DNA of 64,000 bases from Myotis daubentonii (Eukaryota > Chordata > Mammalia > Chiroptera > Vespertilionidae): positions 117,313,033-117,377,032 of the forward strand of contig NC_081841.1 in the NCBI RefSeq assembly GCF_963259705.1, given 5' to 3'. Shown here piece after piece: positions 19,543-55,605 of this stretch (its first letter is position 1; every line of letters begins with the position of its first letter). The translations under genes and the position numbers were made by a program. The notes beneath the pieces were generated by a model that saw only the letters and a program-made list of their open reading frames with translations, searched no databases and was not told the origin of the DNA.

Positions 19543-19976
19543 CTAGAGGCCCAGTGTACAAAATTCATGCAGAGTTGGGGGGGGGGTCCCTCTACCTGGC
19601 CTGCACCTTCTCCAATCTGGGATCCGTCTCACAATCTGAAACCACTGGCTCCTAACCACTCACCTGCCTGCCTGCTTGATGCCTCTTACTGCTCCCCTGC
19701 CGGCCTGATTCCCCTAACTGCTCTCCCCTCCTGTCCTGATCGCCCTAACTGCCTATCTGCTCTCCCTGCCTGGCCTGATCGTCCTAACTGCCTATCTTCT
19801 CTCCCCTCCTGGCCTGATCGCCCTAACTGCCTATCTGCTCTCCCTTCCTCTTTGCGCCCTTTGGACCCAGCCCAGGCATGCTGAGAGCTCTCCACTGATG
19901 CCCCACCTCCGTCCTGATTGGTCGTTCCATGATGGCATCCTGGCCAATTTGCATATTCCTCTATTATTAGTATAGA
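19543..19976 (-). mobile_element. Helitron, minus strand
   Basis: The left edge CTAGAGGCCCAGTGTACAAA is the reverse complement of a Helitron 3' end, and the right edge TATTAGTATAGA is the reverse of its TC start. It carries about three 46-bp tandem units (GGCCTGATCGCCCTAACTGC type) at 19725-19850. Confidence 0.85.
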
Positions 19977-29000: not shown

Positions 29001-32000
29001 AATAATTGCTTTAATTCTTCATTTTCATAATTTTCATTGTAACTATTCTTAGTTTTTTCTATCAGATTTGTCATATGGTTTTTTTCCACAAACATTAGAT
29101 ATCCCATCAGTTTCATTCCCCTGTCCCCAGAGAACTCCCTCCTGGTGCCCTCTGTCCTCAGCTCCAGTCTGGAGTGATTACTCTCTAGATCCGTAGCACA
29201 ACTGCCATACTAGATATTTTGTCATGTTTACAGCTCCCAGGTCCTGGACCCTGTGTTGTCTTTCTCAAAGATTACCTCCCTCATTTTGCTAGAGCATATT
29301 CTCCTGCAATTTCTTAAGAAAAGTTATGAGGGTATGAGGGCTGGATACATAAAGAGGTAGAAAAAATAGTTGTGAGTACACAAAACACAGTTTATTCTTG
29401 TATTTATTAATTATTGTATTTATTTGCATTACAACTGTAAACCTACTTTTGCCAACCCCTGTATAAAATATATATATTTAAGTCTTTACATATCTGAAAA
29501 AAAGTCTTTATTCTACCCTCACTTTTAAAATATATTTGGCTGGCTATAAAAACCTTAGTTTAAAAATTATTTTCCTTCAGAATGTTGAAGACATTGGCAT
29601 TTTTATAGGAATTGCATTGAATCGATAGATTGCTTTGGACAGTATGGACATTTGATGTTTTATAATTTTCCAAGTACCGGTCTTTTGCCTCCTTGGTTAG
29701 ATTTATTCTTAGGCATTTTAATTTTTTTAATGCAATTGTAAATGGGATTATTTTCTTAGTTTCTGTCTCAGTTTATTATTGGTGTATAAAAATGCAACAG
29801 ATTTATGAATACTCATTATGTATCCTGGTACTTTACTGGATTTTTCAGTTCTAGTAGGTTTTTTTGTAGAATCTTTAGGGTTCTCTCTATATAGTATCAT
29901 GTTATCTGCCTTTTATTTCTTCTTGTCTGATTACTGTGGCCAGGAATTCTAGTACTATCTTCTCTCTATATAAAAGGCTAATATGCAAAGTGTCCCTTTG
30001 GGAGTTAGACCAGGAGTTTGGTCACTTGTTATGATGTGCGCTGACCACCAGGGGGCAGCGCAGAACGAAGGGAGGTCCCAACCAGCAGGTTCCAATCGGC
30101 TCTGATCGCTGTCCAGGCCTAAGGACTCTTCCTGTGCATGAATTTCATGCACCAGGCCTCTAGTGTTGAATAAAAGGACATCGCTGTCTTGTTCTGGATC
30201 ATAAGAAACTTTTAGTTTTTTCCCAGAATCTTCTTTTTATTTCTACTATACCAAAAGTTTCATGATATTGGGCCTTGGTCTAGGTCTCTTTTTAATCTGT
30301 GTGCAGACCATTACAGTGGACCTTTTAAATTTGAACATATGTGTTCCTTTGTTCTAGAATCTTTTATTTTTAATAATTTTTTCCACTCTATTTGCTCTGT
30401 AATCTTCTTCTAGCAATCCAGTTAATAATACCATATCCTTCCTGAATCGATTCTCTAATATTCACATTTTCTCTCTCCTATTTTTGTTTGTATTTGTTCT
30501 ACTTACAGACAGCTTTCCTGAATTTTATAGCCCAACTCTTCTGTGAAATTTTTTATTTTCAAGGTTTATTTTTATTCTCTGCTTGCTCATTTCCCCACAG
30601 TATCCTGTCCTTGTCATATGGTTTCTGTGTCCTCTCTTAACTCTTTAAAATTATTGTAATTTTTAAAAATTCTATTCTGTTCCTAACATTGTCTTATTTC
30701 TTCCAAGAACGTTGTTTAAACTTTGTTTTGATCTATTTTTCACACCGGAAACCTCAAATATCTGGTATTCTTTGGCTGTCTGAGATTATTTTAAGAAGAA
30801 TCTTAAAATAAAAGGTCTAAAAGGCTGATTGAATGCTCTGTATAGATAGGACTTATTGATCATTGGGTTACTATAGGGACCAGGTAAACCTGGCCTACCT
30901 ACTGGTTGACTCTCAGATGTCCAAATCTGGAGATCTTTTCTCTGGGCTTGGCACCAGCATTCTAAAGTCAGGGCAGGGAAAGAAAGGCTAAGGTTCCCCA
31001 AATCTCATTTGTAGACCTTCATATAACCCCACCCCCTGCCTGCTTTACACTACCTCCCAAGTACCTGATACCTTTAAGACCTGATTTTTGCCCTAGCCGG
31101 TTTGGCTCAGTGGATAGAGCGCCAGCCTGTGGATTGAAGGGTCCTGGGTTCTATTCCAGTCAGGGCACATTCCAGGTTGTGGGCTCGATCCCCAGTAGGG
31201 GGCATGCAAGGGGCAGCTGATCGATGATTCTCTCTCATCATTGATGTTTATATCTCTCTTCCTCTCCCTTCCTCTCTGAAATCAATAAAAATATATTTTA
31301 AAAAAAGACCTGATCTTAGAAGGGTTCTATGAGTCTTTCGCCTCTTTCTTGTCTGCATCTCCATTCTGCAGCGCTCAGATTGAAGTTCTTCCCCTGGGCT
31401 TGAGCCAGTCTTCATGTTATTTTTTGAAATTTGTTCACATCTCTTTGTCCTTGAGTGGCTATAAAAATTTTCTCTTTCCTATAACTTTCATATAGTTTGG
31501 GGATGGGGAGAAGATAATATGTATACATGTCAACATTCTGTGATCTCTAATGGAATTTTATAGAGATTCCATTAGAAAGTCCATTTTATATTCCATTAGA
31601 GATCACAGGACAGAATCTACAAAGTTATGTAAATAAATGCTGGAGAGGTATTTGGTAAAGTTCAGGAGCTATTTTATATTTCACTTATATTTTTGTTTTG
31701 ATTACATCCTTTCCCCCTTATTATCCCTCTCTCCATCTCTTCCATTCCTTCATTCCTCAGTAACCAGTGTGTCTGATATATATATCTGTCCACATGTTTT
31801 TCTATGTTTATACAGTTATATTCACGGATTTTTTCATCACTTATTTCCATAGAAAATGATTCTACAATAAAAAGTTTTTGCAACTTATTTTTCTTACCCT
31901 TTAACACATTTAGTCATCACTCCAGCTCAATAGACATCTATGTATCTAATGCTCTTTAATATTTGCATAATCCAGAGTAGAAAGCCATCTATTTAACCTT

Positions 32001-37100: not shown

Positions 37101-39611
37101 AGGGATAGAGAGTTGTGTTACAGAATTGAGAAAATTGAGGTTAATAAGAGCCAGCCCTAGATTTGTGTACAAGGCCTGGGGAGTTCTTTTTGTAAGTCCC
37201 CAGCCACTGCTGCTGTTGCAGCATCTTCAAGGATGGTGGGTGGCCATATTAAACACCAAGCCCTGTTGCCAATGCCTTAGCCACAAACTTGCAAAGCCTT
37301 TGCTTTTAGACCAGTATAAAGTGTTGCTTGTCCCTGTGTAGCTGGGAAGTAACTATCTGCAGGGCAGGAGGCTAACTAGACCCAAGAATGAGCTGGGAGG
37401 AACAGGAAGTACAGGGTTGGGTAAGATGGGCAGATTTTCTTTCAAGAGTGAGCAAGCCTAACCAACAGGGAAGTGACACACCCAGTGGTTTGTCTTATTC
37501 ATCTGAATCTGTGTCTCCTCTCCTCCCTTTGGTCTTCAGCCAGCATCCTCTACCTGGAGGGTGCAGAGCTATCTGTCCTGCAGCTGAACACCAATGAGCG
37601 TTTGTGTGTCAAGTTTGAGTTTCTCTCTAAACTGCAGCATCATGACAAGCGGGTAAGAATCAAGCTCCTGGATGGATTATGTTCCTCTGATGATCACGAG
37701 GAGCAGAACATGTTTTTGAAAACTTCCCAGACATGCCAACCCCCTGCTTTTCCTTTCAACCTTCCCTAGCCAGTCATTGTAAAGTAAGTTGAATGAGGAG
37801 ATGCCTTCCCCTGCCCTGCTTCCTGCCATCTTTATTTGTAACTGAGATTAATCTGGACACTGCCTTTGGAAAAGAACAACTTTGCCAAGACCAGAAAACT
37901 GCAGTGGGCAGGGCACAAGCAAATGAGTTCTGTACAATTTCAGCTCACATTGCTGTTCATGGCCAGATGGTAAAATGTTGATTCTTATTTAGTTTGTTTA
38001 AAGCGGTTGTTTTCAAAATGTGGTTCCAGAACAGCACATCAGCATGACCTGGGCTTGTCAGAAATGCAGATTCTAGAGCCCTACCCTAGACCTGCTGAAT
38101 CAGAAACTCAGGTGGCAATCCTTCAACAAGCCCACCAAGTGATTCTGATGCAAGCTTCAGTTTGAAAACTGCTTGTTTACATCTGCAAAAAGTGGCCATT
38201 TGCAGATTTCCCACAAACACATTTTCCTCTCCCATGTTTCATTAGCCCTCAAACTTGAGTGCATGGTGAGGACCAGGTGCCTAGATACTTAAAGCAAAGG
38301 ATCCCACCAGGGTAATTAGAATGGAGGTTGAAGTCAGTATCTGTTATCTGCACCCTCCAGAAAATCTCTCCACTCACATTCTGTCATCTCTGCAACAAAG
38401 GTGCCTGCAGGCCCAGGATGACTAGGGCTTTTTCTATCCCTCCCTCTGCACTTTCATGCTCTGGAACAATCTTAAGAGATCCCTGGCTTTCCCATTTAAG
38501 GAAGAAGAGTTACTTAACAAATAGTTTTTAGCTGCCTCTTGTGTGCCAGCTATTGATGAGGCCAGGTCTAGGTTTTTTGAAATAGGAAGGAAAGACCAGA
38601 GGAAACAAAGAGCAAAGATACAGAAACCTCTGATTTTGGATCTTGTTGTGATGGTTATTTCTTCTTATTTTTTGACTGATCTTTTGGGAGTGGGTAGGGT
38701 GGGGTTCTTTGGGCATAGCTGTGTGGGAGGTATGGTGTGTGACCTGTCCAACCTTCCCTTCCTCCCTTCTCTTCAGTGGCATTTTACCTTTAGCCACTTT
38801 GTGGTAGAACCTGGCCAGGAATATGAAGTGACCATTCACCACCTGCCCAAGCCCATCCCTGATGGGGACCCAAACCACCAATCCAGGAACTTTCCTGTGC
38901 CAGGTAAGAGTGCCATACCAAGCCCTTCCCTTCACCACATGGCTCTGCAGAAAAAACCAACAAGTGGCCCAGACATCAGCCACCCTGCTCAGCTGGACAA
39001 TGGCTGCCATTGTCAGCATGTGGTACCCACAGAACAAACAGATGCCAGGGATAGGGAGCCCTTCTGTATGTGGCCTCAACCTCTACTCCCTGAAGGCAGA
39101 GCCCGTTCTCTGTTGGCACAAACAGTGGATATTGGCCCAAGACCCCAGGAGTTTTATGGGAACTAAGCATGCTACTACCCAGAAAGTATCAGGAGGACAA
39201 GCCACGTTTGGAAGAGTTGTAACCCTTATCCCAGCCTCGTCCCAGCTTCCATCACCTTGTTCTTCACTTTTACCCCACATCCTGCCTGCATTTATCTAAC
39301 ACCACCCAATGTAGGATACCATCTCCCCCACTAATCCATCCTGCCTATGAATACTGCCAGGTTTATCTACTAAAGCAGCATTCAATGTGCATCTTCTATT
39401 TTTCTGCCCTCCCCAGAGTCTCAGCCACTACTTACAAAACTTTTTATTGTTCAAAACCAACTATATCTGGAACGCCAGCCTCTCTGAGGACAGGGTCTGG
39501 GTCTCATACTCTTTTGTGTAGTCACTAGAACCTCACAAATTGGCTTGCATTTAGTAGGTGATCAGGAAATGCTTCTTAGAATGATGATGACTTTCATCTG
39601 TGGAGCGATTC

Positions 39612-39642
<31 letters not shown>

Positions 39643-42600
39643 TATCCACATACCCTACTTTATTTTCCTTTTTCTTACTCATCACTCCCTGACATTTCAT
39701 AATGTATGTGGACATTATTGTTTGTTTTTATTGGTCTCTTTTACTGGAATGTAATCTCTGGAGGACAGGGACTTTGTCTTATTTACCAGTTTTTAAAATG
39801 GTGCCTGGCACATATTGAGAGCTCCATAAGTATTTGTTGAATGAATGAATGTCCCCCAGCCCCCTCCCCTGTCCTTAAAGTAAATTGACTCAGTCTCTGT
39901 CACTCCATGGTAATTCATACCTGTCACGTGTCTTCTTAAACCAAAGTAAAGCCTGGCTGACGTGGCTCAGTGGTTGAGTCTTTACCTGTGAACCAGGAAG
40001 TCATGGTTTGATTCCAGGTCAGGGCACATGCCTGGGTTGTGGGCTCGATCCCCAATGTGGGGCGTACAGGAGGCAGCCAATCAGTGGTTCTCTCTCATTG
40101 ATGTGTCCATCTCTCTCTTCCTCTCTGAAATCAATAAAAATATATTAAAAAAACAAAAAAAGTAAAATTACAGTCAAGAAAATTGGTGAAGGAGATCAAG
40201 AAGATATCTGTGGAGCAGTGGTCCTTAAGGTAGTCCCAGAACCAACAATGTCATTGAATGCAGATTCTCAGGACCCATTCCAGACCTGCTGAATCAGAAA
40301 CTACTGATGATCGCACACATGGAAGTTCAAGAAACACTGCCATGGAGGAACAAAGAACAAAGTTCTCCCCTCGTAAAAAGTTGCCTCTCAAGAGGCAACT
40401 CTAGAGAGGAAGCTGCAGTATGAAGAGATGGTTATCTAAAGCAAGCTCACAAAAATAAATAAATACATAAATAAATGAAGCAAGCTCAGGAGAAATACAC
40501 TTGAAACTAGACAGTTCCCTGATAGAGGAGGGGTGAGAAAACCAGGTCAGCCCCAGTGCTCTGGGGACTCTGGTCAATGGCCACAGTCCAGTCCTAGAGC
40601 TTGCTTTGAAGGGGCCATCCTTGAATAGGCTCCCCAGAAGGAAAAGGATGTTATCTTTGGTATCAGCATTCTGGAAGAAGTGCAAACTTTATAAGGTAGA
40701 GACTTAATGGTGTCATTTTTTTTCTGGGTCTGCAGACTGTGAGGACCCCAGGATGAAGATAACCAGGCCCTGTGTGAGTTCAGGTAACTTTGGCTGGCAT
40801 GCCAGGGGAGCTTTATTTGGCTACACATACATGCCCTCTCCTCACTCCCCGCCTATGTCTTTGCCCTGGGCAGGCAGCCTGTGGGATCCCAACATCACCG
40901 TGGAGACCCTGGAAGCCTACCGGCTGCGGGTGAGCTTCACTCTGTGGGATGAATCTACCCATTACCAGATCCTGCTGAACAGTTTCCCACGCACAGAGAA
41001 TCAGAGATGTTTCAAACACATATTGGATATACCTGCGGTAAGTCTGCCACTCTTAACCCCTCAAACATAGCTCAGAGCCACCCCTCCAAGCCTTCAGCGT
41101 CCCCTTATTAGTCCTGACAAAACTATTGCCAGAAATCTAGCGCTCAGTGCTGTGCCCTTTGGTATGCAGTTGATACATACTAGTAGTTGATTCTGTGGTT
41201 GAGGTTTCCTTTTGCTCTCAATATCTGTAGTTAGCCCTGCTCACCATTTCATCCTTTTTGTCCTTCCCTCCCACATTCTCTGCTGTTCTCTTTTTGTTCC
41301 ACTTTGTTTATTCTACTTATTTCAAAAAGATTGGAAGATTTTTAAAATGTGGAAATGAAGACAAGGGGAAATAAAAATGAGGCAAGTAAGATGGAGCCAG
41401 GGTGAGATGAGTACAGAAAATGTATGCAACGCTGCTGGGGATGAGCACAGATCTGTCTCCATGGTCCTTAGCAGCCAATGCAAAGAGGGAAATACTGGTC
41501 ACCAGCTGTGTTCATAAGTTAACAACAGGCCCGATGCACTAGGGAAACATCATTTTCCTGGAGCAGAAACCTGAAGGCATTTCTCTTGAGGCACACTGAC
41601 AGTAGTGGGGAATGTTGTCATCAATTCCTGCAGCACTGTGGCCAGCTCTCATCCAGCTAGCCTCACCTATCCTCTCCCCTCTCTTCAGCCCACACGAGAG
41701 GACTCCCACCAGCGATCCAATGTCACGCTCACTCTACCAAACTTTAACTGGTGCTGCCACCACCGAGTGCAGGTGGGTGAGTGTGATATAACAGAGAGCA
41801 TGCACAGGTGGGCATTCCTTCTAGAGGGATGAGGGAGGGGAGGAGGGCAGTTTGTGACTTGTGCTCTCTCTGAGGATCCAATGCCACTACCATCTGGGAC
41901 TCCCTGCCTGGAAGCCCTTCTCTCCCAGCCTCACCTGGGCAGGGCTCCTCTTGATGATGGATGGATGATCACCTAACCGCCACACTGAGATACTGAAGCA
42001 GTCAGCCAGGGTCCATTACTCTTCTGTCAGGAAAGCATTGATGGGGGTCCTGTGTCTCCCAGTCCCTGTCTTCCCTGCCCTTCTCTGGTCTCACAGATCC
42101 AGCCCTTCTTTAGCAGCTGCCTGAATGACTGCCGTAGACACTCCGTGAATGTTTCCTGTCCAGAAATTCCAGGTAGGAAGCAGATGTCTATCTTGAAACA
42201 CAATTGGGGCGAGAATCAGTGAAGGTCAACAACTTGAGCTGAACCCTGACCTGGTCCTAAGGGTGAGGGCAGAGTTTAACTTGGAGTTATTCAGGCCTGT
42301 GATGCAGGGCTTTAGAGAGACACTCCTGGGTTGGACTGCTGACTGCATTGTATTAGCTGTGTAGACTTGGGTAAAGTACAGTACTTAATCTTTCTGATCC
42401 TCAACTTTTGTGACTGAAAAAAATGGGATTGTTACTGTCATAGAGTTACAGTTATATTCCATGTACAGAACAAAATCTTTATAAATTGTGAACCAAGAAG
42501 TAGAAACTCCTGACCCCAGGTTCATAGATGAAGAAACTGAGGCCCAGAGATGTGTAACTTGTCCAAGATCATACACCAAGGAAGTGGCAGAGGCTGTTCA

Positions 42601-45600
42601 GAAGCCTAACTTGTGGCTATAGTCAAAACTGAGCAGAAAGCAACAGGCATTGCACTGGTTTCGACATAAACCCCAGTCTGCCAAATGAAGGGAGGGGCAT
42701 TACTTGGTAGCCTAGAAACTCAGGTGTTTTGTTTAAATGGTTTCATCAAGTTTAACCTGTATCTAAAGTGGTTGAGATCTAGCCAGTTTGGCTCAATGGG
42801 TAGAGTCCTATGGACTGAAAGGTCCTGGGTTCAGTTCTGGTCAAGGGCATGTACCTTGGTTGCAGGCTTGATCCCTGGCCCTGGTCAGGGCTCATGTGGA
42901 AGGCCACCAATCGATGTGTCTCTCTCACATCAATGTTTCTCTCTGTCTTTCCCCCTCGCTTCCACTCTCTCTAAGAATCAAAGGAAAAATATTCTTGGGT
43001 GAGGATAAGTAAATAAATAAATAACTAAAGTGGTTGGTATAGGGCCATGGCTATTAGCAGGTCCTCAGTGAATGTCAGTAATGGTTTTGTGATTACTGTT
43101 AATAATTGAAATACTATTTTCCTTTGTTCTCATAGCAGACCCGATTGCAGGTAAGGCCACTGATCCTTCCCATAGTGTGCTGCAGGAGACCCAAGGGGAC
43201 ATTCCTCAGGGGCCATATGAGAAGTTCCCGTCTGAGCCTGGTGCCGGGCCAGGCTTTCAAAGTTGCCCAGGGGTGGGTGAGATCACCAGTATGTCATGGT
43301 GCAGGCCGGAGAGGCCAGCTTAGGGGCTGGAGGACCTCAGGGTTGGCATAACAGGCCTCCCTGCCACATCACTCATGCTGTTCTGTTCGCCACAGAGTAC
43401 ATACCCCTGTGGGTGTATGGTTTCATCACGGGCATCTCCATCCTGATGGTGGGTTGCATCATCCTGCTGATCCTCTGCATGACCTGGAGGCTATCTGGTA
43501 AGGGGCAGACACTGTGGTATGGGTCCTGGGGTTTTCCCTTTGCTCTTCTCTTTCTTCCCATCTCCCCCTTTCCACTCCAGTTTCTGTAATGCTGTGCCCA
43601 GAAGGCACCCTTCAATCTCAAATTTGTACAGGTTACACCTCTGTTATCAATTAGAGCTTGCAGTAAGGTTGACCTGGCTGGGCTCAAATAACAGCTCCAT
43701 CACTTACCACCTGGGAAAATTACTTCATTCTCTAAGCCTCAGGTTCCTTTTTTATCAAAATGGAAATTAGGAGCTCCAGTGGCGCAATCGGTTAGCGCGC
43801 GGTACTTATAAAATGGAAATTATAATGATACCCACATCATCAAACAATTATAAAGATTACATGAGATAATGCATATGGATTCTTAGCACAGTTTGGCACA
43901 TATTTGCTTATTATATGTTAGCTACAATTATATTTATTGCCACTGAAATTAATATTAAAATCAACAGGTTGGGGCCGTGGCCAGGTAGCTCATTTGGATA
44001 GAGCATCATTCTGATATGCCAAGGTTGTGGGTTCAATCCCTGATCAAGACACATACAAGAATCAACCAGTGGGTGCATAAATGAGTGGAAGAACAAATCA
44101 ATCTCTCTTTCTCTCTCCCCCCACCTTCCTCTCTCTAAAATCAATTTTAAAAAATCAACAGGTTGGAAGGAACTAGAGTGGAGTTTTCCTGCATGAGACA
44201 TGATCAGCTAGGCAGGTGGAGTAACCTGAGCTACCCCATCCTGCAGCAGTCCCCAGACCGTAGTCCGGAGGTCAGGGAGAGTAGGATGACAAAGGACAGC
44301 ATGATATGATAGGGAAAGCTCTGGGGAAACAGAGCACAGGGCTGTGTACCCCAGTTCATTGATTTGCAGTCATAGGCAAGTTGCTTAATAAACCATAGAT
44401 CTGGTTGTCTTTTTTGGAAAATAGAGTCATAATGCCTCCCTCTCACAGCAGTGGATGGGTTAAATGATACAGCAGGGAAGGTGCTTTTTGGTGGGTATTA
44501 ATAAATATTGGTTCCCCCTCCACACTGCAGCCCTCTCTGGCCAGGTTCTAAATAGAGAACATGGATTTTCAGGTTAGGGGACTTGGCCTTTCCCTGTCCC
44601 TCCACAACCCTGGACTCCTTCATTGATCTGGGAGGCCATTTCCACACTTACAAGGCTCATCAGGATTAGGTATTTAATCAGTATTAATTATTGTGTGGTG
44701 GAAAGAACACCAAACCAGACACCAAAAGACCTATGGAGAGGGTCCTCCGTAGGATTACTGGCAGTAAAATGAGTTAAATGTCTCTGCAAATGCTTTGTAA
44801 ACCATAAAGCTCTCTATAGATGTCAGGGTGACTTCTTGTTTCATTACTGCTTTTGCACTTCTGACCTTTCCTGAAGTGCCACATGCAGGCTAAAGGAAAG
44901 GATAGGAAGGAAACCTCATCATCTGACTTGTCTTTTGATAGTTCTGAGAAGAGGCCCAAAGGGTGGGGATTAAAATGAAGGCTCTACAGTAAAGGTCTTC
45001 CTTGACCATCTGTGGGTTCTCTTTCTCCCATCAGTATCACCAAGGAGTTGACTTCTGCACTAAGTTTCCTTCATTGCATCTCTGAGGGGGGCAATTGCTC
45101 AAGTATGTTGGTTTCCTTTCCTCATCTCAAAAATACTAGGAGAAAATGTAAATGCACCTGTTGGAGGCTTCTTTTGGATATATATTGTAAGATTTATGCT
45201 TCCTGCAAAGACACCTCTGGGGAAGGGCTTTTTCTCAAGTGAGGAGTCTCCTTGGGAGTGGCCAAACTGGGAAGAGTACAACCAGGACTGTAATGAGGTA
45301 CCTCAGTCACCATTCTAGGGGTTCTGGCTGGGTCCATTCCACAGAATACTTGTGACTTCAGCTGACTGAGTATGTGTTGGGCACAGAGCAATCTCATTTA
45401 ATCACCCACCACAAACCCATTTTACAGAGGAAGAAATTGAGTTTCTCAGGTGTTAATAACTTTCTCATATCTCACAGCTTGTCATGGCTGACTGAGATTC
45501 ACATCTGAGTAACTCCACACAGCACGATCTCCCTGCCTCTGGCTGCCTTCCCTTATAAGTTGCCCTTTGTAAGGGGTGGGGAAGCACTCCTCTGTCAGAT

Positions 45601-48161
45601 GCCTCTGTGAGTTAGTCCCTAGTTTTTCAAAAGAACTTTGATGTTTTTCATTTCAGGGTCTCATCATGAAAAATATGGCAGTGACACCAGAGACACAGGT
45701 CAGTATTTCCTGGTGGGGGTATGCTGGGTTTAGCGTATGTTTATTTTTATTTTTTAATATGTTTTTATTGATTTCAGAGAGGAAGAGAGAGATAGAAGCA
45801 TCAATGATGAGAGAGAATCATTGATCGGTTGCTTCCTGCATGCCCCTTACAACTATTGAGGCACACCAGCCAGGCTTACTTTTTTTAAAATATATTTTTT
45901 ATTGATTTCAGAGAGGAAGGGAGAGGAGAGATAGATAGAAACATCAATGATGAGAGAGGTGTATGTTTATTTTTAAAGATGTGATGGAGGGTTCTCCTGA
46001 GATAATGGGTGGGTCACCTTCCGCAGTTTAACTCCTGAGTCCCTTCAGAAGACCTCATCCCCAAAGAGGCCACCTTAAATGGCAAGGCTGGGGCAAAGTT
46101 TTTTAAATCACTTGGACAAGGAAAGGAGGTAAAGTACCAACCATATTTTGTGAAAAAAGGTCATCCCTGGCTCAGCTGTGGTGGCTCAGTGGATTGAGTG
46201 TCGTCCAATGGACCAAGAGGTTCCGAGTTCGATTCCTAGTCAGGGCACATGCCGGGGTTATGGTCTCAATCATAGGGGATGTGCAGGAGGCAGCCAATCA
46301 GTGAGTCTCATCGTTGATGTTTCTCTTTCTCCCTGTCCCTTCCTCTCTGAAATCAATAAAAATTTAATTTTTTAAAAAAGAGGTCATACCTGTTTTATAG
46401 TCAGGTCTTTGTTTCTATTTTTTTCTTTTGATGAACTTTATTAGGCTGAAGGCCAGATAGAAATGTGAGAGATTCTTTTTTCCAGAAGGTACCAGACTGT
46501 GATTTTTTTCATGCAGCTAAAATAGGTAAAACAGCAACATCTGGCTTACTCCTAGGCCTCGGTTGCATTTTTTAATCTAGGGAGCCAAGCTCTGCCTGGT
46601 CTGGTTCCCTCCCCTTGGCCTGTGGTGTAGGGTCAGCACAGACACACATCTGAACCTGTGAGCTTGGCTTGCCTTGTTTCCCCCAGATGTCCTGCCCACC
46701 ACTGGCCTTTTGCCCCCTCCCCTGAAGCCCAGGAAGGTTTGGATTGTCTACTCTGCCGACCACCCTCTCTTTGTGGATGTGGTCCTAAAGTTCGCCCAGT
46801 TCCTGCTCACTGTCTGTGGCACTGAAGTAACCCTCGACCTGCTGGAGGAGCAGATCATCTCAGAGATGGGAGTCATGACCTGGGTGGGCCGGCAGAAGCA
46901 GGAGATGGTAGAGAGCAATTCCAAGATCATCATCCTGTGTTCCCGAGGTACCCGAGCCAAGTGGCAGGCCATACTTGGCTGGGAAGAGCCTGTTGTCCAG
47001 CTTCGATGTGACCACCAGCAGCTTGCTGGGGACCTTTTCACAGCAGCCATGAATATGATCCTGCCAGATTTCAAGAAGCCAGCCTGCTTTGGCACCTACA
47101 TCATATGCTACTTTAGTGACATCAGCAGTGAGAGTGATATCCCGGACCTCTTCAACATCACTTCTAGGTACCCACTCATGGACAGATTTGAGGAGGTTTA
47201 CTTCCGGATTCAGGACCTGGAGATGTATGAACCTGGCCGGATGCACCGCGTTGGGGAGCTCACAGGGGAGAATTACCTGCAGAGTCCCAGTGGCTGGCAG
47301 CTCAAGGAAGCTGTGGAGAGGTTCCGAGAGTGGCAGGCTCAGTGCCCTGATTGGTTTGAGCGTGAGAACCTCTGCTCAGCAGATGACCAGGATCTTCCAT
47401 CCCTAAATGAAGAGGTGTCTGCAGAATGGCTACTGCCGCCTGGAAGAGGGATTGTGAAGCAGGAGCCCCTGGTGCAGGAGCCTGCTGCTGAGGGCCACCT
47501 GGAGGTGGCACTGCTCATCACTGAGGGAGGCAGAGGAGTGGCCAGGCTGCAACCTAAGCTTCAGCCCCAGGGGCAGCTGGTGGCCCAAACCCTTCAAACC
47601 ATGGTGCTCCCCCTGAAGGCTGTCCCTCCCACTCAAGCTGTGGAACCTGCCCCTCCTGCTATTAGGAGCAGCACAACCAGTCAGTTGGCCATTGTGGAAG
47701 GAAATGAGGCCTACCCACTGCTGGAGTGCTGTAACCTTCAGCAGAACAGTGTCCTCTTCCTCCCCATGGACTCAGAGGACCCACCTCTCTGCAGCACCTC
47801 TATGGCATTACCAGACCACCTCTCAGAGGATGTAACGGGGCAGCTTGAAGGCTTGATGCTCTCACTCTCCCAGAAGAGTCTGAGCTGCCAGACCCCAGAG
47901 GGGTGGGAGAGACCTGGGGAGGGGCAGCGGGAGTCAGTGCAGTCTGACCAGGGCTACATCTCCAGGAGCTCCCCGCAACCCCCTGATGGACTGGTGGAAA
48001 TGGAGGAAGAGGAAGGAAAGCAGAACCTGGGAAAGTCTGCCAAGCAACTCTCCTGTGAGGCCCTGGAGAGCCTGAGAAGCCTCCAGCGACAACTTTTCTT
48101 CCAAGAGCTTCAGAATAACTCTGGCTGGGACAGTATGGAGCCAGAGAGGCCAGTTACATAG
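22903..48161 (+). CDS. IL17RA: Interleukin-17 receptor A, complete 13-exon gene
   Basis: This gene encodes the common signalling chain for IL-17A/F and related cytokines, a single-pass plasma-membrane receptor. Coding exons are 22903-23046, 35353-35377, 36559-36705, 37540-37652, 38777-38903, 40736-40783, 40874-41037, 41689-41772, 42097-42172, 43139-43150, 43396-43497, 45657-45698 and 46687-48161. They total 2559 nt, 852 residues plus TAG, with every junction GT/AG and in phase. The order is signal peptide (about 1-33), two fibronectin-III-like ectodomains (about 34-300), transmembrane helix (about 318-341), SEFIR domain (about 378-535) and a C-terminal tail holding the conserved [15 protein letters not shown] stretch. 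Human IL17RA is 866 residues with the same exon plan. No frameshift or premature stop is seen. The start is the ATG at 22903, in a CpG-rich promoter and followed at once by the signal peptide; an upstream in-frame ATG at 22891 would add four residues and is judged less likely. Confidence 0.97.
24052..24262 (+). mobile_element. tRNA-derived SINE in IL17RA intron 1
   Basis: Head CGCAGCCTGGCGGGTG to body GATCAGGGCACATGCCCG and a tail of AAAATATATATATTTTAAAA. Somewhat diverged. Confidence 0.85.
25233..25475 (+). mobile_element. tRNA-derived SINE carrying a 55-bp hAT insert
   Basis: Starts AGCCCTGGCCTGGTGGCTCA and ends with ATAAATACGAGGATTAG and poly(A). The tRNA-like head is split at 25273-25343 by a small terminal-inverted-repeat element. 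Confidence 0.88.
25281..25335. mobile_element. Miniature hAT-like element (55 bp)
   Basis: Fifteen-bp inverted termini, CAAGCATGTCAAACT and AGTTTGACATGCTTG, are flanked by a perfect 8-bp direct repeat CTGTACAC (25273-25280 and 25336-25343). The 8-bp duplication is the hAT signature. It is among the smallest such insertions that can be seen. Confidence 0.8.
26410..26590 (+). repeat. MIR
   Basis: Diverged ancient SINE: TAGAGTGAGACCTGGGCTC then TAAAAGGAGGTGACC and AGGGTTATCAGGAGAGTGAG fit the MIR body. Confidence 0.6.
26800..27027 (+). mobile_element. tRNA-derived SINE, second subfamily
   Basis: Starts CTGGCCCTGGCCACCATGG and ends AAAATCAATGGAAAAAATAT, CTCAGGTGAGGATT and poly(A). The 3' end differs from the AATCAATAAA type seen elsewhere and matches the copy at 42774. 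Confidence 0.88.
27170..27410 (+). repeat. MIR
   Basis: Well recognisable: GATTAGGAGCATGGGTCTGG, the TTAGGTAACCTACCTGTGCT segment, GAGATAATGGTACTTACCTC and GGGTTGTTGTAAAGATTAAA. Confidence 0.85.
27592..27800 (-). mobile_element. tRNA-derived SINE, minus strand
   Basis: Reverse orientation: the AT-rich tail at 27590-27610 is followed by TTTTTATTGATTTCAGAGAG and, at the far end, CTGAGCCACACTGGCTGGGC. Confidence 0.88.
28153..28761 (-). mobile_element. Helitron, minus strand, in IL17RA intron 1
   Basis: Left edge CTAGAGGCCCGGTGGATGAA, right edge CCTTTTATTATATAGGA (reverse of TCCTATATAATAAAAGG). Interior includes the CCCCCTGGTGGTCAGTGCAC segment. No helicase frame. Confidence 0.88.
28762..29579. 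other. AT-rich intron 1 sequence
   Basis: No gene or confidently named repeat. It may include decayed LINE sequence. Confidence 0.35.
29580..30330 (-). pseudogene. Old LINE-1 ORF2 fragment, minus strand, split by a Helitron
   Basis: Reverse-strand LINE-1 ORF2 phrases are visible: AGGAATTGCATTGAATCGAT and GAATCTTTAGGGTTCTCTCT. The fragment is split at 29958 by a Helitron; it rejoins as AGTACTA|TGTTGAATAAAA. No open frame. Confidence 0.7.
29958..30163 (+). mobile_element. Helitron, 206 bp
   Basis: Starts TCTTCTCTCTATATAAAAGG after A and ends GTGCATGAATTTCATGCACC plus AGGCCTCTAG, followed by T. The host LINE-1 shows the empty site clearly. Confidence 0.92.
30331..31089. other. Intron 1 sequence without recognised features
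   Basis: AT-rich and non-coding. Nothing recognised with confidence. Confidence 0.35.
31090..31307 (+). mobile_element. tRNA-derived SINE (Ves type)
   Basis: CCCTAGCCGGTTTGGCTCAG head through ATCAATAAAAATATATTTTA tail. AAGACCTGAT occurs on both sides as target duplication. Confidence 0.93.
31538..31608. repeat. Short inverted repeat
   Basis: CTGTGATCTCTAATGGAA (31538-31555) is matched in reverse complement by TTCCATTAGAGATCACAG (31591-31608). A third partial copy, AGATTCCATTAGA, sits between them in the same direction as the right arm. Confidence 0.75.
31612..32957 (+). pseudogene. Old LINE-1 ORF2 fragments
   Basis: ATGCTGGAGAGGTATTTGGT (31639 region) and ATGCTGGAGAGGTATTTGAT (32820 region) are both LINE-1 reverse-transcriptase sequence, as are pieces near 32090-32270 and 32700-32880 (GTAGGATTTATTCCAGTAAT). 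Order is disturbed and no frame stays open. Confidence 0.55.
32288..32692 (+). mobile_element. Young 5'-truncated LINE-1 (405 bp)
   Basis: Covers the end of ORF2, the 3' UTR and an A-rich tail. A perfect 17-bp duplication AAAAGAATAGTGTTCCA lies at 32271-32287 and 32693-32709. Confidence 0.93.
32958..34006 (+). mobile_element. Young 5'-truncated LINE-1 (about 1.05 kb)
   Basis: Begins inside ORF2 (GAAACCATCAACAAAACAAC) and ends with 3' UTR and AATAAAATAAAAATAAAAAT. The last 171 codons of ORF2 (33199-33714) are open, so the copy is fairly young, but the enzyme domains are missing. Confidence 0.88.
34007..34100. repeat. (TA)n microsatellite
   Basis: About 90 bp of nearly pure TA dinucleotide immediately after the LINE-1 tail. 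It probably grew from the right-hand target duplication, because the left flank of the LINE-1 also holds ATATATATATAT. Confidence 0.95.
34530..34640 (-). repeat. MIR, minus strand
   Basis: TTTAATTTTCAACAACACTA, ATGAAGTTGGTATTGTGG and the GAAGAAATCAAGGCTTGGC segment follow the reverse MIR order. Confidence 0.6.
34878..35095 (+). mobile_element. tRNA-derived SINE before IL17RA exon 2
   Basis: CCTGCTGGTGTGGCCCAATG head to AATAAAAATATATTTTAAAA tail. AGTTGGAAGGTT is repeated on both sides. Confidence 0.9.
35353..35377 (+). CDS. IL17RA: IL17RA coding exon 2 (25-nt microexon)
   Basis: Encodes GLNCTVKN plus one base of codon 57. The acceptor is ttttttcccacag and the donor gtaagt. It carries the N-glycosylation sequon NCT at residue 51. 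The matching human segment is GLNCTVKN, so this very short exon is secure despite its size. Confidence 0.93.
35566..35795 (+). mobile_element. tRNA-derived SINE (first of a pair)
   Basis: Begins ATGCCCTGAGTGGTGTGGCT. AGAATATTCAT occurs before it and after the second SINE, so the second copy landed in the tail of the first. Confidence 0.88.
35806..36036 (+). mobile_element. tRNA-derived SINE (second of a pair)
   Basis: CTAGCTGCTTTGGCTCTGTG head to AATCAATAAAAATATTTTAA tail. It is inserted in the A-rich end of the preceding SINE. Confidence 0.88.
36559..36705 (+). CDS. IL17RA: IL17RA coding exon 3
   Basis: Codons 57-106, from [11 protein letters not shown] to HIEWTLQTD. It completes a second sequon (NST at residue 56) and forms the first half of the membrane-distal fibronectin-III-like domain. 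Acceptor ttccag, donor gtgagt, phase 1 at both ends. Confidence 0.95.
37540..37652 (+). CDS. IL17RA: IL17RA coding exon 4
   Basis: Codons 106-143, [18 protein letters not shown] to LQHHDKR. The leucine-rich NTNERLCV strand is conserved with human IL17RA. Acceptor gtcttcag, donor gtaaga, ends in phase 0. Confidence 0.95.
38000..38175. repeat. MER5A-like hAT remnant
   Basis: The phrases AGACCTGCTGAATCAGAAAC, CCAAGTGATTCTGATGCAAG and GTTTGAAAACTGCTTG fit a MER5A-type ancient hAT. It lies in IL17RA intron 4. Confidence 0.75.
38777..38903 (+). CDS. IL17RA: IL17RA coding exon 5
   Basis: Codons 144-186, starting [18 protein letters not shown] and ending in the [16 protein letters not shown] linker between the two ectodomains. 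Acceptor tcttcag, donor gtaaga, ends in phase 1. Confidence 0.95.
39600..39642. repeat. (CA)n microsatellite
   Basis: About 14 CA units in IL17RA intron 5. Confidence 0.95.
39740..39850 (+). repeat. LINE-2 3' end-like repeat
   Basis: GGAGGACAGGGACTTTGTCT, GTGCCTGGCACATATTGAGA and TATTTGTTGAATGAATGAAT are typical of the LINE-2 3' end. Confidence 0.7.
39952..40161 (+). mobile_element. tRNA-derived SINE in IL17RA intron 5
   Basis: CCTGGCTGACGTGGCTCAGT head to AATCAATAAAAATATATT tail. AAAGTAAA flanks both sides. Confidence 0.9.
40215..40342. repeat. MER5A-like hAT remnant
   Basis: GCAGTGGTCCTTAAGGTAGT at one end, CAGACCTGCTGAATCAGAAA inside and GAAACACTGCCATGG at the other. Confidence 0.65.
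40736..40783 (+). CDS. IL17RA: IL17RA coding exon 6 (48 nt)
   Basis: Codons 186-202, [16 protein letters not shown] plus one base. It starts the membrane-proximal ectodomain. Acceptor gggtctgcag, donor gtaact, phase 1 at both ends. Confidence 0.93.
40874..41037 (+). CDS. IL17RA: IL17RA coding exon 7
   Basis: Codons 202-256, [16 protein letters not shown] through HILDIPA. It keeps the sequon at N208 (NIT). Two sequons that I recall in the human protein in this exon (NES and NHS) read DES and NQR here. Acceptor ctgggcag, donor gtaagt, ends in phase 0. Confidence 0.95.
41689..41772 (+). CDS. IL17RA: IL17RA coding exon 8
   Basis: Codons 257-284, [18 protein letters not shown] through HHRVQ, with a sequon at N267. 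Acceptor ctcttcag, donor gtgggt, phase 0 at both ends. Confidence 0.95.
42097..42172 (+). CDS. IL17RA: IL17RA coding exon 9
   Basis: Codons 285-310, [18 protein letters not shown] through CPEIP. The cysteines that close the membrane-proximal domain are present. An NVS sequon at residue 302 is where I recall human TVS. Acceptor ctcacag, donor gtagga, ends in phase 1. Confidence 0.95.
42774..43024 (+). mobile_element. tRNA-derived SINE, second subfamily
   Basis: Head TCTAGCCAGTTTGGCTCAAT, 3' end AATCAAAGGAAAAATATTCT then GGGTGAGGATAAG. CTAAAGTGGTTG lies on both sides as a 12-bp target duplication. Confidence 0.92.
43139..43150 (+). CDS. IL17RA: IL17RA coding exon 10 (12- or 15-nt microexon)
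   Basis: A tiny in-phase exon between exons 9 and 11 encoding D-P-I-A in the juxtamembrane stalk, followed by a gtaagg donor. The acceptor is a tandem NAGNAG (catagcag): using the first AG would start the exon at 43136 and add one alanine. The human counterpart encodes a slightly longer stalk (DTPEPIPD). Its place, phase and strong donor support it, although its size alone would not. Confidence 0.82.
43396..43497 (+). CDS. IL17RA: IL17RA coding exon 11 (transmembrane)
   Basis: Codons 314-348, beginning EYIPLWVYG. About 24 hydrophobic residues (318-341) form the single transmembrane helix, followed by the stop-transfer MTWRLS. Acceptor cgccacag, donor gtaagg, phase 1 at both ends, so skipping it would keep frame and yield a soluble receptor, as known for a human isoform. 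Confidence 0.95.
43773..43809 (+). pseudogene. Retroposed 5' half of tRNA-Ile(UAU)
   Basis: GCTCCAGTGGCGCAATCGG, TTAGCGCGCGGTACTTAT read as a perfect 5' half of tRNA-Ile(UAU): acceptor 5' strand, D arm, anticodon 5' stem and the TAT anticodon. The sequence stops there. A perfect 13-bp duplication, AAAATGGAAATTA, lies at 43757-43769 and 43810-43822, so it arrived as a LINE-type insertion. Three extra bases (GGA) precede it. There is no poly(A) tail. It cannot fold into a tRNA. Confidence 0.85.
43973..44150 (+). mobile_element. tRNA-derived SINE, older type
   Basis: GGCCAGGTAGCTCATTTGGA head with GGTTCAATCCCTGATCAAG B-box region. The short tail region differs from the common subfamily. A perfect 16-bp duplication AAAATCAACAGGTTGG lies at 43957-43972 and 44151-44166. 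Confidence 0.92.
44310..44515 (+). repeat. MIR
   Basis: GGCAAGTTGCTTAATAAACC, GGAAAATAGAGTCATAATGC and GGTGGGTATTAATAAATATT follow MIR order in intron 11. Confidence 0.7.
45657..45698 (+). CDS. IL17RA: IL17RA coding exon 12
   Basis: Codons 348-362, [14 protein letters not shown], the short cytoplasmic linker before the SEFIR domain. Human reads GSEKYSDDTKYTD at this place. Acceptor tttcatttcag, donor gtcagt, phase 1 at both ends. Confidence 0.92.
45752..45960 (-). mobile_element. Two SINE fragments, minus strand
   Basis: 45752-45875 and 45884-45960 each begin with TTTATTGATTTCAGAGAGGA, the reverse of the SINE 3' end. The first lacks much of its middle, the second is 5'-truncated. GTATGTTTATTTTT before and after suggests one combined insertion site. 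Confidence 0.8.
46158..46380 (+). mobile_element. tRNA-derived SINE 300 bp before IL17RA exon 13
   Basis: GGCTCAGCTGTGGTGGCTCA head to AATCAATAAAAATTTAATTT tail, flanked by similar AAAAGGTCAT and AGAGGTCATA. Confidence 0.88.
46687..48161 (+). CDS. IL17RA: IL17RA coding exon 13 (SEFIR and C-terminal tail)
   Basis: Codons 362-852 plus TAG. The SEFIR domain starts at [11 protein letters not shown] (about 378) and includes the conserved [26 protein letters not shown] and [12 protein letters not shown] segments. It recruits ACT1 (TRAF3IP2) through homotypic SEFIR contact. The tail, rich in Pro, Glu and Leu, ends with [19 protein letters not shown], close to human. The acceptor is ttgtttcccccag. 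One open frame throughout. Confidence 0.97.
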
Positions 48162-49660
48162 CACCTCCCAGACAAGAGCATTGAGAGAAGGGAGTGTATG
48201 TGTGTCTCTATATGTATGTATATTCATATGTGAAATGATACCTTTAAAATATAGACATCTTGATTTTGATCCCCGTTAATTTTTCTTTCTGGGACCATCT
48301 GATCATCTTCCATCCCCACAAAAATCTACGGCCCATTTCCAGAGCTAGTGGCAGTGTTCTTGAGTCTCCGTTATTCATTCATTTATTCAACATTTATTTT
48401 GTACCTACTATGTGCCAGGGACCTGAGATACAAAGATAAGTTGCACCTGTAATTGGGCCTGGTCACTAAGGAAATTAACATCTAGTGAGAGGAACAGATT
48501 AGCAAGTAGAGGATGGTCATGCAAGATGGAAAGGCTGAATAGAGGCCTGCCCAGGACTAGGAAAACACATAGAAGGAGTACCTGGCCCAGGGAGAAATCC
48601 TGGAGTGGGTGATATATGAGCTGAAGGAGAAGCTAGTTTCCTATGCCAAGAGATTGTGATTGGAGAAGGCACAAGTCCTGGAGAAGGAAAAGGCTAGGAG
48701 ATGAGTATGAGCCAGACCCATCAGTACACTGCTAGTTGAGCCTGGAGAGGAAGGAGGGAGGCATGAGAGATGTGGTGGCGGGTTATCCAGAGTCCAGGCC
48801 TGGAGTTGGGACATCAGCCTGAAGGCCTGGGAGTCCTTGGATGTGATAAGCTGTTGCCCTGCAGAGGAGGCTGAGAGCCAAACATATTTGGAAGCCATCT
48901 CAGATCATTTTGGAAAGAGACCAGATAGATAGCTGATGTGAAACTGAACAGCATTCATCAGGGAGGAAAGTCTGAAGTCCTGAGCTCTTAATTAGTGGGA
49001 GAGCTACAGCAAAGAATGCTTCAGGGCTGCTAACTAGGAGCCCTCAGCTCCCCAGTGGGGTCCAACAGCAAAATGAATTGAGTGTGAGATAAGGAGTGTT
49101 CATGGCAGAGTGGGAGTGGGAGGTCACTGAGCAGATCCTTTTCGGGGAGAGGGAAGTGTGCCACTCTGTTCTTAAAGGTCTATGTTCAAAGAAAATATTT
49201 AAGGAGAGACACTAAGGCCCAGAGTTTGAAGTTTTTCCTGGAAGGGCACACTGGGATGCAGTCTGCCCCTGTCATAGCAGCCTGAACAGACTATAAAATA
49301 GCCTGGGAGTAAGAAAAAGAAAAAAATGGGAGAAAAGGCACAGCCCTCCCAGTCTCTTGGGTTTCATTTCTTCAGTAATTCTGGAGATGGGCATCATTGT
49401 GTCCAGATGCCTACCAAGCTCTCTGTGAATCAGCACTTACTAAATGTCCAGCATGTGAAATGCCATGGTGGACTCTTCTCTGGCTGGAGTCAGGGTTCTA
49501 TCTGGCAGCAGAAGGGTCCAACCAATGTAGTCCTTGTGCCCGGAAGCACACTTCCATTTGGATTGTGTTCCCCACAAACCTTGAATTCTAGCTTTGCTGG
49601 CCTTTGAGGCCAGATATTTTTAATTGTCATTGTCCACTATGTCTCTATGTCCAGGACTGC
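48162..49660 (+). other. IL17RA: Probable IL17RA 3' UTR, proximal part
   Basis: Sequence after the IL17RA stop codon, mostly single-copy. No canonical AATAAA or ATTAAA that I would trust is seen in this segment, so the transcript probably runs further. An AATAAA near 57926-57931 is one possible distal signal. A stretch at about 48370-48520 (ATTCATTTATTCAACATTTA type) resembles an ancient LINE-2-related repeat. Confidence 0.4.
48661..49660. other. Single-copy sequence downstream of IL17RA
   Basis: No second gene is seen. Short ORFs here have no recognisable domain. In human the next gene is TMEM121B on the opposite strand; I find no trace of its coding sequence in this window. Confidence 0.4.
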
Positions 49661-51576: not shown

Positions 51577-53528
51577 GGGAGGAGAGAACCAAGATGGCGG
51601 CATAGGTTAACGCCGGAGTTTGCTGCTTTGAACAACTACTTCAAAAGTGAAACTAAAACACGGAACGGACATCACCCAGAACCACAGAAACGCTGGCTGA
51701 GTGGAAGTCCTACAACTAGGAGGAAAGAGAAACGCACACGGACACTCAGAGGAGGCGCAGTGGTGAAGTCAAATTCTGAGGTGCGGAGTGCGCGGAGCGG
51801 GCTGGCGGCGGAGGGCGCGGTTGTTGTTTTCAATCGGGAGGGAGTCGCAGACTCTGAGCACCAGATCCGGGCGAGTCTTTAGGGACCCAGACTCAAACGG
51901 GAGAAGCGGGACTGTCTGGCTTCGGTCAGAGCGAGTGCAGCTTTCTCTCCCAGCTTTGCAGCGGGTGCTGGGACTCAGAGAGGCAGAGCCCCTGGGGACA
52001 GGACTGAGAGCCGCCATAACTGCTCTCTCCGGCCCACCCTGTTGATCCTGTGCGACCCGCCCCGCCCAAGCCCTGCACGGAGGCATTTGCCGGATAGCCT
52101 CAGGCAAAGGCATTTGCCAGATAGCCTCAGGCAAAGGCTAGATTAGCACCTCCCTAGAGGACAGAAGTTCTCTCACTGCTGACACAGCTGATTCTCATAG
52201 CCACTTGGCCTGGAGGTCAAACCCTCCCTGGAATTAGCTACAACAATCAAGATTTAACTATAAGACTTCGAACAAAGACCACTAGGGGGTACACCAAGGA
52301 AGCATAACAAAATGCGGAGACAAAGAAACAGGACAAAATTGTCAATGGAAGAAATAGAGTTCAGAACCACACTTTTAAGGTCCCTCAAGAACTGTTTAGA
52401 AGCTGTCGATAAACTTAATGAGATCTACACGAAAACTAATAAGACCCTCGATCTTATATTGGGGAACCAACGAGAAATTAAGCATACACGGAATGAAATA
52501 ACGAATATTATACAGACGCCCGACAGCAGACCAGAGGAGCGCAAGAATCAAGTCAATGATTTGAAATGCGAGGAAGCAAAAAACATCCAACCGGAAAAGC
52601 AAAATGAAAAAAGAATCCAAAAATGCGAGGATAGTGTAAGGAGCCTCTGGGACAGCTTCAAGCGTACCAACATCAGAATTATAGGGGTGCCAGAAGATGA
52701 GAGAGAACAAGATATTGAAAACCTATTTGAAGAAATAATGACAGAAAACTTCCCCCACCTGGTGAAAGAAATGGACTTACAGGTCCAAGAAGCGCGGAGA
52801 ACCCCAAACAAAAGGAATCCAAAGAGGACCACACCAAGACACATCATAATTAAAATGCCAAGAGCAAAAGATAAAGAGAGAATCTTAAAAGCAGCAAGAG
52901 AAAGAAACCGAGTTACCTACAAGGGAATACCCATACGACTGTCAGCTGATTTCTCAACAGAAACTTTACAGGCCAGAAGGGAGTGGCAAGAAATATTCAA
53001 AGTGATGAATACCAAGAACCTACAACCTAGATTACTTTACCCAGCAAAGCTATCATTCAGAATTGAAGGTCAGATAAAGAGCTTCACAGATAAGGAAAAG
53101 CTAAAGGAGTTCATCACCACCAAACCAGGATTATATGAAATGCTGAAAGGTATCCTTTAAGAAGAGGAAGAGGAAGAAAAAGGTAAAGATACACATTATG
53201 AACAACAAATATGCATCTATCAACAAGTGAATCTAAGAATCAAGTGAATTAATAATCTGATGAACAGAATGAACTGTTGATTATAATAGAATCAGGGACA
53301 TAGAAAGGGAATGGACTGACTATTCTTAGGGGGGAAAGGGGTGTGGGAGATGTGGGAAGAGACTGGACAAAAATCGTGCACCTATGGATGAGGACAGTGG
53401 GTGGGGAGTGAGGGCGGAGGGTGGGGCGGGAACTGGGAGGAGGGGAGTTATGGGGGGGGAAAAAAAGAGGAACAAATGTAATAATCTGAACAATAAAGAT
53501 TTAATTAAAAAAAAAAAAAAAACAAAAA
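51577..53528 (+). mobile_element. Full-length HAL1-type (half-LINE-1) retrotransposon
   Basis: A perfect 16-bp duplication CAAAAATTAAATGAAG flanks it (51561-51576 and 53529-53544). It starts GGGGAGGAGAGAACC, with AAGATGGCGG (a YY1-type site, as in LINE-1 5' UTRs) at 51591. A 735-bp GC-rich 5' UTR, one intact ORF1 and a 370-bp 3' region with a G-rich tract and AATAAAGATTTAATT tail follow. No ORF2 is present at all, which defines the HAL1 arrangement. It would depend on LINE-1 enzymes. Confidence 0.88.
52312..53160 (+). CDS. Intact ORF1 protein of the HAL1-type element
   Basis: A 282-residue LINE-1 ORF1-type protein with no stop or frameshift. Order: basic N-terminus, coiled-coil region (about 12-110), RNA-recognition domain (about 118-215, with IRIIGVPE and TPRHIIIKMPR), C-terminal domain (about 216-275, ARREWQEIF, RLLYPAKLSF). 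It ends at LKGIL. Family role: trimeric RNA-binding chaperone. ATG chosen because it is the first of the open frame, follows the 5' UTR and fits family length. Whether it is expressed is unknown. Confidence 0.9.
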   Translation: MRRQRNRTKLSMEEIEFRTTLLRSLKNCLEAVDKLNEIYTKTNKTLDLILGNQREIKHTRNEITNIIQTPDSRPEERKNQVNDLKCEEAKNIQPEKQNEKRIQKCEDSVRSLWDSFKRTNIRIIGVPEDEREQDIENLFEEIMTENFPHLVKEMDLQVQEARRTPNKRNPKRTTPRHIIIKMPRAKDKERILKAARERNRVTYKGIPIRLSADFSTETLQARREWQEIFKVMNTKNLQPRLLYPAKLSFRIEGQIKSFTDKEKLKEFITTKPGLYEMLKGIL

Positions 53529-54907: not shown

Positions 54908-55605
54908 TCCTATATAATAAAGAGCTAATATGCAAATGGTCATCATTCTCTCAGGTTGGAACTGCTTAGACACTCAACACAGGAGAGAGAAATGGAGACC
55001 AGCCAGGCATAAATAAACTGGGGAGAGAGGAATGGGGACCAGCCAGGCACAAATGAGCTCGAGAGAGAGGAATGGGGACCAGCCAGGCTGCGGCCCGGGA
55101 GAGGGAAAAGCCACCCGCCCTGTGGTTCTGGGTGCCAGCGCCTGCGCCTGTGGCCTGGGAGAGGGACAAGCTGCCTGCCCTACAGTCCCAGATGCCAGTG
55201 TCTGTGTCTGTGGCCCAGGAGAGGGACAAGCCACCTGCCCCATGGTCCCGGGCACCTGTGGCTGCGGTCTGGGCAAAGCTACCCACACACGGTCCCCTGA
55301 GGTGTGGCAGCTGGGGTCCTGAGTGCCTGTGACCGGCCAGAGGAGGGAATCCTGCATCCTGGGTGTGGGGTGAGGCAGAGCCAGATAGGGGTGATCAGGC
55401 CAGCAGGGGAGCAGTTAAGGGAGATCAGGCTGGTAGGGGAGCAGTTAGGGGCAATCAGGCAGGTGACTGGTTAGGAGCCAGTGGTCCCAGATTGCGAGAG
55501 GCAGTCGGACATCCCCCGAGGGATCCCAGATTGGAGAGGGTGCAGGCTGTGCTGAGGAACCTCCCCCCACCCCCTGTGCACAAATTTCGTGCACCGGGCC
55601 TCTAG
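54908..55605 (+). mobile_element. Helitron, head-to-tail with the previous one
   Basis: Starts TCCTATATAATAAAGAGC directly after the CTAG of the preceding element and ends GTGCACAAATTTCGTGCACC, GGGCCTCTAG. The interior is made of short tandem repeats: about 40-bp units (54975-55090), about 60-bp units (55085-55265) and about 28-bp units (55385-55470). Non-coding. Confidence 0.88.

Follow-up and report, generated by a model that had tools for sequence, protein, structure and literature searches.

A probable tailless retropseudogene of tRNA-Ile(UAU) in an IL17RA intron of Myotis daubentonii

The window analysed here, a stretch of 64,000 nucleotides from the bat Myotis daubentonii, contains part of the gene for interleukin-17 receptor A (IL17RA), and one of the introns of this gene harbours a short insert derived from a tRNA. 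Upstream of the insert, part of an ectodomain exon is found at 38774..38905 on the plus strand (residues 84-127 of the open frame at 38525), for which all seven PDB matches are labelled interleukin-17 receptor A. Downstream, an open frame with the SEFIR-domain coding exon extends over 46662..48161 (plus strand), with a Pfam SEFIR match and three matches to PDB sequences, namely to interleukin-17 receptor B and A (722 bits), to A (406 bits) and to B (32 bits). The insert lies between these two exons and on the same strand, so that its placement in an IL17RA intron by an initial sequence-only reading is borne out. The stretch 43401-43499 reads as a membrane-spanning segment and is followed by GTAAGG; it gave no match in PDB, and we assign this exon to IL17RA by our own reading and by its place between the confirmed exons. 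The insert is situated about 260 nt inside the intron.

The insert comprises 40 nt (43770-43809) and stands between two direct repeats that are identical at 13 of 13 positions (AAAATGGAAATTA; left copy 43757..43769, right copy 43810..43822), all of these features being read directly on the plus strand. It begins with three letters, GGA (43770..43772), which the initial reading had passed over; they stand 5' of tRNA position 1 and are either a remnant of a pre-tRNA 5' leader or untemplated. The tRNA portion follows at 43773..43809. Positions in the tRNA are given here in the standard numbering taken from established tRNA structure, unless a linear count is stated.

In linear count, 43773..43809 represents positions 1-37 of tRNA-Ile(UAU), which is up to U36 in the standard numbering, and is identical at 37 of 37 positions to the vertebrate tRNA as printed in one passage of PMC12135372, whose extra first G was taken off before the comparison; the reference comes from other vertebrates, and the source gene of Myotis daubentonii may differ from it. 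The match continues for a total of 39 nt without a mismatch, from 43773 to 43811. As the last two matching A's (A37 and A38, at 43810..43811) are at the same time the first two letters of the right repeat, the tRNA may end at position 36, 37 or 38, so that the tRNA part measures 37, 38 or 39 nt, and the shared AA may represent a 2 nt priming overlap. The copy had been described as ending at the anticodon, which holds in so far as its end lies in the anticodon loop, while the exact end is ambiguous by two nucleotides. There is no A-tail, again as had been claimed, because the A's at the junction occur in both repeats. Taken together, the sequence supports the interpretation of the insert as a copied 5' part of tRNA-Ile(UAU) with a putative target-site duplication.

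Neither ARAGORN nor Rfam reported a tRNA for the insert, which is unsurprising as it is only half of one. Exact-pattern scans of viral, bacterial and archaeal contig collections, which may omit records close to this genome, gave 0 matches and hence no leader or intron from a tRNA-Ile(UAU) gene of an animal. The 40 nt piece taken alone folds no better than shuffled sequences (z 0.28), a value that is uninformative with respect to the whole tRNA. The insert contains 5 CpG dinucleotides, and the window as a whole has a CpG observed/expected ratio of 0.22. By eye, and with what we take to be the A-box and B-box motifs, an A-box-like stretch was seen in the insert and no B box. No function is expected for an insert of this make-up at this depth in an intron.

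The target of the insertion is an old MIR SINE (43673..43923, plus strand), which is split by the insert and was identified by nhmmer with what we take to be the MIR consensus. The left piece (43673-43767) corresponds to consensus positions 41-147 (E 5.1e-6) and the right piece (43804-43923) to positions 129-254 (E 4.2e-4), and the overlap of the two pieces on the consensus is the duplicated stretch; blastn listed the right piece alone (E 0.001). When the flanks are joined with one repeat kept, the local alignment score against the same consensus rises from 79 for the filled site to 128. Among 290 removals of 53 nt, with starts from 43611 to 43900, 22 reach this value, every one of them starting within 43749-43770, and the other removals have a mean of 83.8 and a highest score of 124. 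A random draw, in which 170 of 2000 removals reached 128, is consistent with this block. The best single removal starts at 43752 and not at the repeat itself (132 vs 128), which in our reading is due to the saving of a 1 nt gap, as TTAT precedes AAAA on both sides.

To lessen the dependence on this presumed consensus, nine MIR-like pieces from elsewhere in the window were combined into a profile, although these pieces had themselves been found with that consensus (two of the 14 MIR rows given by nhmmer belong to the target, and from the remaining 12 those at 26638-26808, 39793-39836 and 48387-48423 were omitted). With this profile the joined site is one match of 24.1 bits (E 7.8e-9), whereas the filled site breaks up into two pieces (9.3 and 7.9 bits) plus a match in reverse orientation (0.0 bits). 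When the nine pieces were used singly, the joined site scored higher for four, equal for three and one point lower for two. Since joining the flanks restores one MIR, we interpret the repeats as a target-site duplication, in agreement with the initial reading, and most simply this duplication would have been made together with the insert. The pre-insertion state of the target can be read from the MIR, and this bears indirectly on a further possibility named in the initial reading, that the repeats are a tandem duplication existing without the insert. A tandem duplication predating the insert is rejected on this indirect ground, as the AAAATGG stretch is present only once in the MIR.

The frequency of comparable repeats was assessed by counting overlapping 13-mer direct-repeat pairs in non-simple sequence at a spacing of 40-120. 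Twenty first-order Markov sequences of window length contained 0-2 such pairs each, 6 in total, whereas the real window has 60. Tandem arrays account for most of these, with 35 pairs at 54-61 kb and 20 in an array at 19.7 kb; another four represent one 16 nt pair at 58557/58653 that flanks an A-tailed insert. The one remaining pair is 43757/43810, the repeats on either side of the perfect tRNA piece. A match of 37 nt to a tRNA without any mismatch is, as we infer, beyond chance, and a chance origin of the insert is rejected on the basis of this match and of the pair counts in the Markov sequences. The arrays include a G+C-rich minisatellite at 60082-60618, with units of about 40 and about 80 nt, and a short array at 19667-19849 with units of about 31-39 nt. 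The A-tailed insert (58573-58652, or 58557-58668 with its 16 nt repeats AGAACTGCATAGCTTT) has a left repeat that is followed by 7 T's (10 if the repeat's own are included), corresponding to an A-tail on the minus strand; judged by eye, it looks like an ordinary tailed insertion of the LINE-1 type.

Tailless retropseudogenes of tRNAs were reportedly treated by Schmitz et al. in 2004. The class comprises 3'-truncated RNA copies without an A-tail that are attributed to LINE-1 and, according to the passages of Noll et al. 2015 used here (PMC5322556), takes in nearly all RNA types, with 2,402 human examples in which duplications can be discerned. The definition given there calls for a complete or nearly complete 5' end (for tRNAs, at most 20 nt between the left repeat and the element), a 3' truncation of at least 10 nt, a length of at least 30 nt, more than 69% identity to the source RNA, a duplication of 8-35 nt that is at least 70% identical, no oligo(A) tail, a single-stranded end point, and a target complementary to the last 2-18 nt, with the consensus TT/WAAAAWW. 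At the present locus, tRNA position 1 is retained with 3 extra nt before it, the copy ends at linear position 37-39 of 77, it agrees at 37/37 positions with the tRNA printed for another vertebrate, the duplication is identical at 13/13 positions, the A's at the junction belong to both repeats, and the end at 36-38 falls in the anticodon loop of the established tRNA structure. The A-rich target has short complementarity as in the known cases, but at the 2 nt minimum (counted with a source RNA from other vertebrates), and it differs from their consensus in that TC/AAAATGG has the A-run without the second T and the trailing W's. With this layout we consider it very probable that the insert is a member of the class.

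Inserts of this kind are already known, and a copy of this very tRNA with an identical end has been published. A human partial tRNA-Ile(TAT) of 38 nt on chromosome 7 (44465584-44465621, GRCh37) likewise starts at position 1 and ends in CTTATA; the passage of PMC4694795 that presents it, in the context of sequences that confuse read mapping, describes a partial tRNA without speaking of a retropseudogene, and does not give its flanks. It is a separate locus in another species and differs from the present insert in two letters (GCATGC vs GCGCGC here). Among the matches listed from the open-licence full-text literature, no title or abstract was recognised as reporting a tRNA-Ile(UAU) insert in an IL17RA intron.

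Of the processes that could have produced the insert, we favour one in which LINE-1 copied a tRNA-Ile(UAU) RNA that had not been cut. The LINE-1 endonuclease would have nicked the bottom strand of the MIR at TTTT/GAT (top strand TC/AAAA), and the freed TTTT 3' end would have served as the primer for the LINE-1 reverse transcriptase on the tRNA-Ile(UAU) RNA, pairing with A37-A38, which are single-stranded in the anticodon loop, of a tRNA or pre-tRNA (internal priming). Copying would then have proceeded from the anticodon loop to the 5' end of the RNA, and second-strand cleavage 13 nt away would have resulted in the 13 nt duplication. Priming at A37-A38 would mean that the 3' half was never copied. 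LINE-1 as the enzyme is suggested by the perfect short duplication, the A-run at the nick and the 5'-complete tailless copy, which argue for target-primed reverse transcription of a small RNA, and LINE-1 sequence is itself present in the window (see below). Counting somewhat against this reading, the target TC/AAAATGG agrees with TT/AAAA at five of six positions and fits the class consensus less closely. Among the possible templates, an uncut tRNA or pre-tRNA primed internally is the most likely, and we regard the statement as a whole, a tailless tRNA-Ile(UAU) retropseudogene made via LINE-1 and including this priming step, as rather probable, with considerable room for doubt.

Three templates give the observed junction: an uncut tRNA or pre-tRNA that is internally primed, a stress half, and a fragment of leader plus exon 1 from splicing. 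The initial reading had taken the end point as direct evidence that a tRNA half served as the LINE-1 template, a claim that we do not uphold, because an uncut RNA that is primed internally would be expected to end at the same place and the end point cannot be counted as evidence for cleavage. Only two of the 77 break points of the mature tRNA (77 nt including CCA), those after 13 and after 37, give at least two letters matching the AAAATGG target, and a narrower scan of 20-69 gave 37 alone. A zebrafish primer, compared in its opening intron letters, likewise gives a match of 2 nt between the pre-tRNA and the target. The overlap of 2 nt could be a coincidence. A stress-type 5' half of the mature tRNA, cut in the anticodon loop by angiogenin, RNase L or RNase T2, would agree with an end at 36-38, and half-length tRNAs are also the typical partners in 21 tRNA/LINE-1 chimeras of a 2026 study, often covering 1-37, which the passages available from that study interpret as tRNA halves (PMC13174262). 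These chimeras resemble our insert in the tRNA region, in target-primed reverse transcription and in their duplications of 9-19 bp (eight cases checked), but they are joined to LINE-1, mostly in antisense to it, whereas the tRNA piece described here stands alone and ends directly at the right repeat, after which the MIR resumes. A half of the mature tRNA would bring no GGA, its end is where priming is predicted anyway, and Noll et al. favoured internal priming after a search for A-tailed truncated copies of 5S and U2 RNA, and for source RNAs that were themselves truncated, had yielded nothing convincing (PMC5322556, in the passages concerned, tRNA not being their test case). We consider a stress half an improbable template. 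If the GGA was templated, it points to an unprocessed precursor and not to a stress half of the mature tRNA.

Such a precursor could also have supplied the template as a fragment, tRNA-Ile(UAU) being made from an intron-containing pre-tRNA: the 5' leader plus exon 1 released during splicing, with GGA as the end of the leader and the 3' end of the RNA at the exon 1 border (37), give or take one nucleotide. The GGA in front of the tRNA fits this, as does the end range of 36-38, which spans the splice border after position 37. Fragments of this type, termed 5' pre-tRFs, occur for pre-tRNA-Tyr, where they carry leader letters and exon 1 and end at the splice border or one nucleotide around it; as described in parts of PMC12239594, they are present in mock-infected fibroblasts, are raised by murine gammaherpesvirus 68 and are lowered by knock-down of Tsen2. 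They are RNA fragments of another tRNA and not genomic inserts, and the same source reads their commonest end as a cut after splicing and not as a splicing intermediate. A zebrafish pre-tRNA-Ile primer, in the passage of PMC2229849 that gives it, has AGAC after CTTATA, which we count in favour of this template; its first intron letter is likewise an A, so that an uncut pre-tRNA yields the same junction. The GGA may moreover be untemplated. The sequence GGAGCTCC forms a perfect palindrome, a possible sign of a copying artefact. A splicing fragment as template is in our view unlikely, if worth keeping in mind, and it is slightly more doubtful that the insert is a genomic fossil in the strict form, with the fragment cut after position 37 and copied by LINE-1 from its very 3' end with a target match of 1 nt. 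Processes other than internal priming by LINE-1 or the copying of a fragment are still less probable. Repair of a double-strand break with a piece of tRNA, in which fill-in or slippage created the repeats, would account for a target motif that is not a perfect TT/AAAA, but we judge it very unlikely in view of the perfect 13 nt duplication that starts with AAAA, the 5'-complete RNA copy in the layout typical of the class, and the continuity of the MIR across the joined site. Least probable of all, and hardly credible, is that the insert is what remains of a SINE derived from a tRNA, or of a complete tRNA gene; a tRNA-derived SINE does lie nearby (about 43973-44150, by eye), but the insert is identical to a real tRNA over 37 nt and directly joined to the right repeat, and such an origin is rejected as the site contains none of the exact 12-mers from the 3' half of the tRNA (two of them occur elsewhere in the window, at 41927 and 60472).

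The insertion had also been described as recent. If rates of 2.2-4.0e-9 per site per year are assumed, together with a CpG factor between 1 and 10, the 66 sites counted, three of which (the GGA) lack a reference, give a 95% upper bound of 4.8-20.7 million years on the age. The tRNA part of 37 nt equals the printed sequence, the two repeats are identical, and the insert has its 5 CpG in a window with the CpG ratio given above. A fairly recent event is a reasonable conclusion, subject to the assumed rates and to a reference tRNA from other vertebrates, from which the genome's own source gene may differ.

The locus adds a clean, fairly young and non-primate example to the tailless retropseudogenes, and touches the question whether tailless copies originate from cut RNAs or by internal priming. 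This question could be usefully examined in tRNAs that contain an intron, as splicing adds to the other two kinds of break a third one whose place, position 37, is precisely fixed, and retained leader letters would distinguish precursor from mature templates. Were the insert indeed a fossil of a splicing fragment, genomes would keep a datable germline record of such fragments, readable by a comparison of intron-containing with intronless tRNA families.

Other repeats in the window include the tRNA-derived SINE mentioned above, which follows the tRNA half some 135 nt downstream, by eye is of the bat type, has an A-rich tail and is flanked by 16 nt repeats (AAAATCAACAGGTTGG; 43957-44166 with the repeats). 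Together with the insert at 58573-58652 it makes up the two tailed insertions with 16 nt repeats in the window, their kinds being judged by eye. Of six window frames searched against Pfam, two were LINE-1-like, three had no match and one was IL17RA. One of the LINE-1-like frames, an ORF1 frame open over 298 aa (52264-53160), carries both ORF1 domains, within 52264-53157; the other holds part of a reverse transcriptase (5588-6043), the assignment of which to LINE-1 is our own. What we take to be the 3' end motif of bat Helitrons, with its presumed taxonomic range, is matched with 1-3 mismatches at 3145-3172, 17741-17768, 30136-30163 and 55578-55605; these four matches compare with a mean of 0.00 in 100 shuffles, in which there were 0, and given that presumed range they are consistent with a vespertilionid host. 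An Rfam match to mir-9223 (3291-3366, minus strand, 86.7 bits), about 120 nt from one of the Helitron-end-like sequences, is possibly a repeat-derived microRNA precursor.
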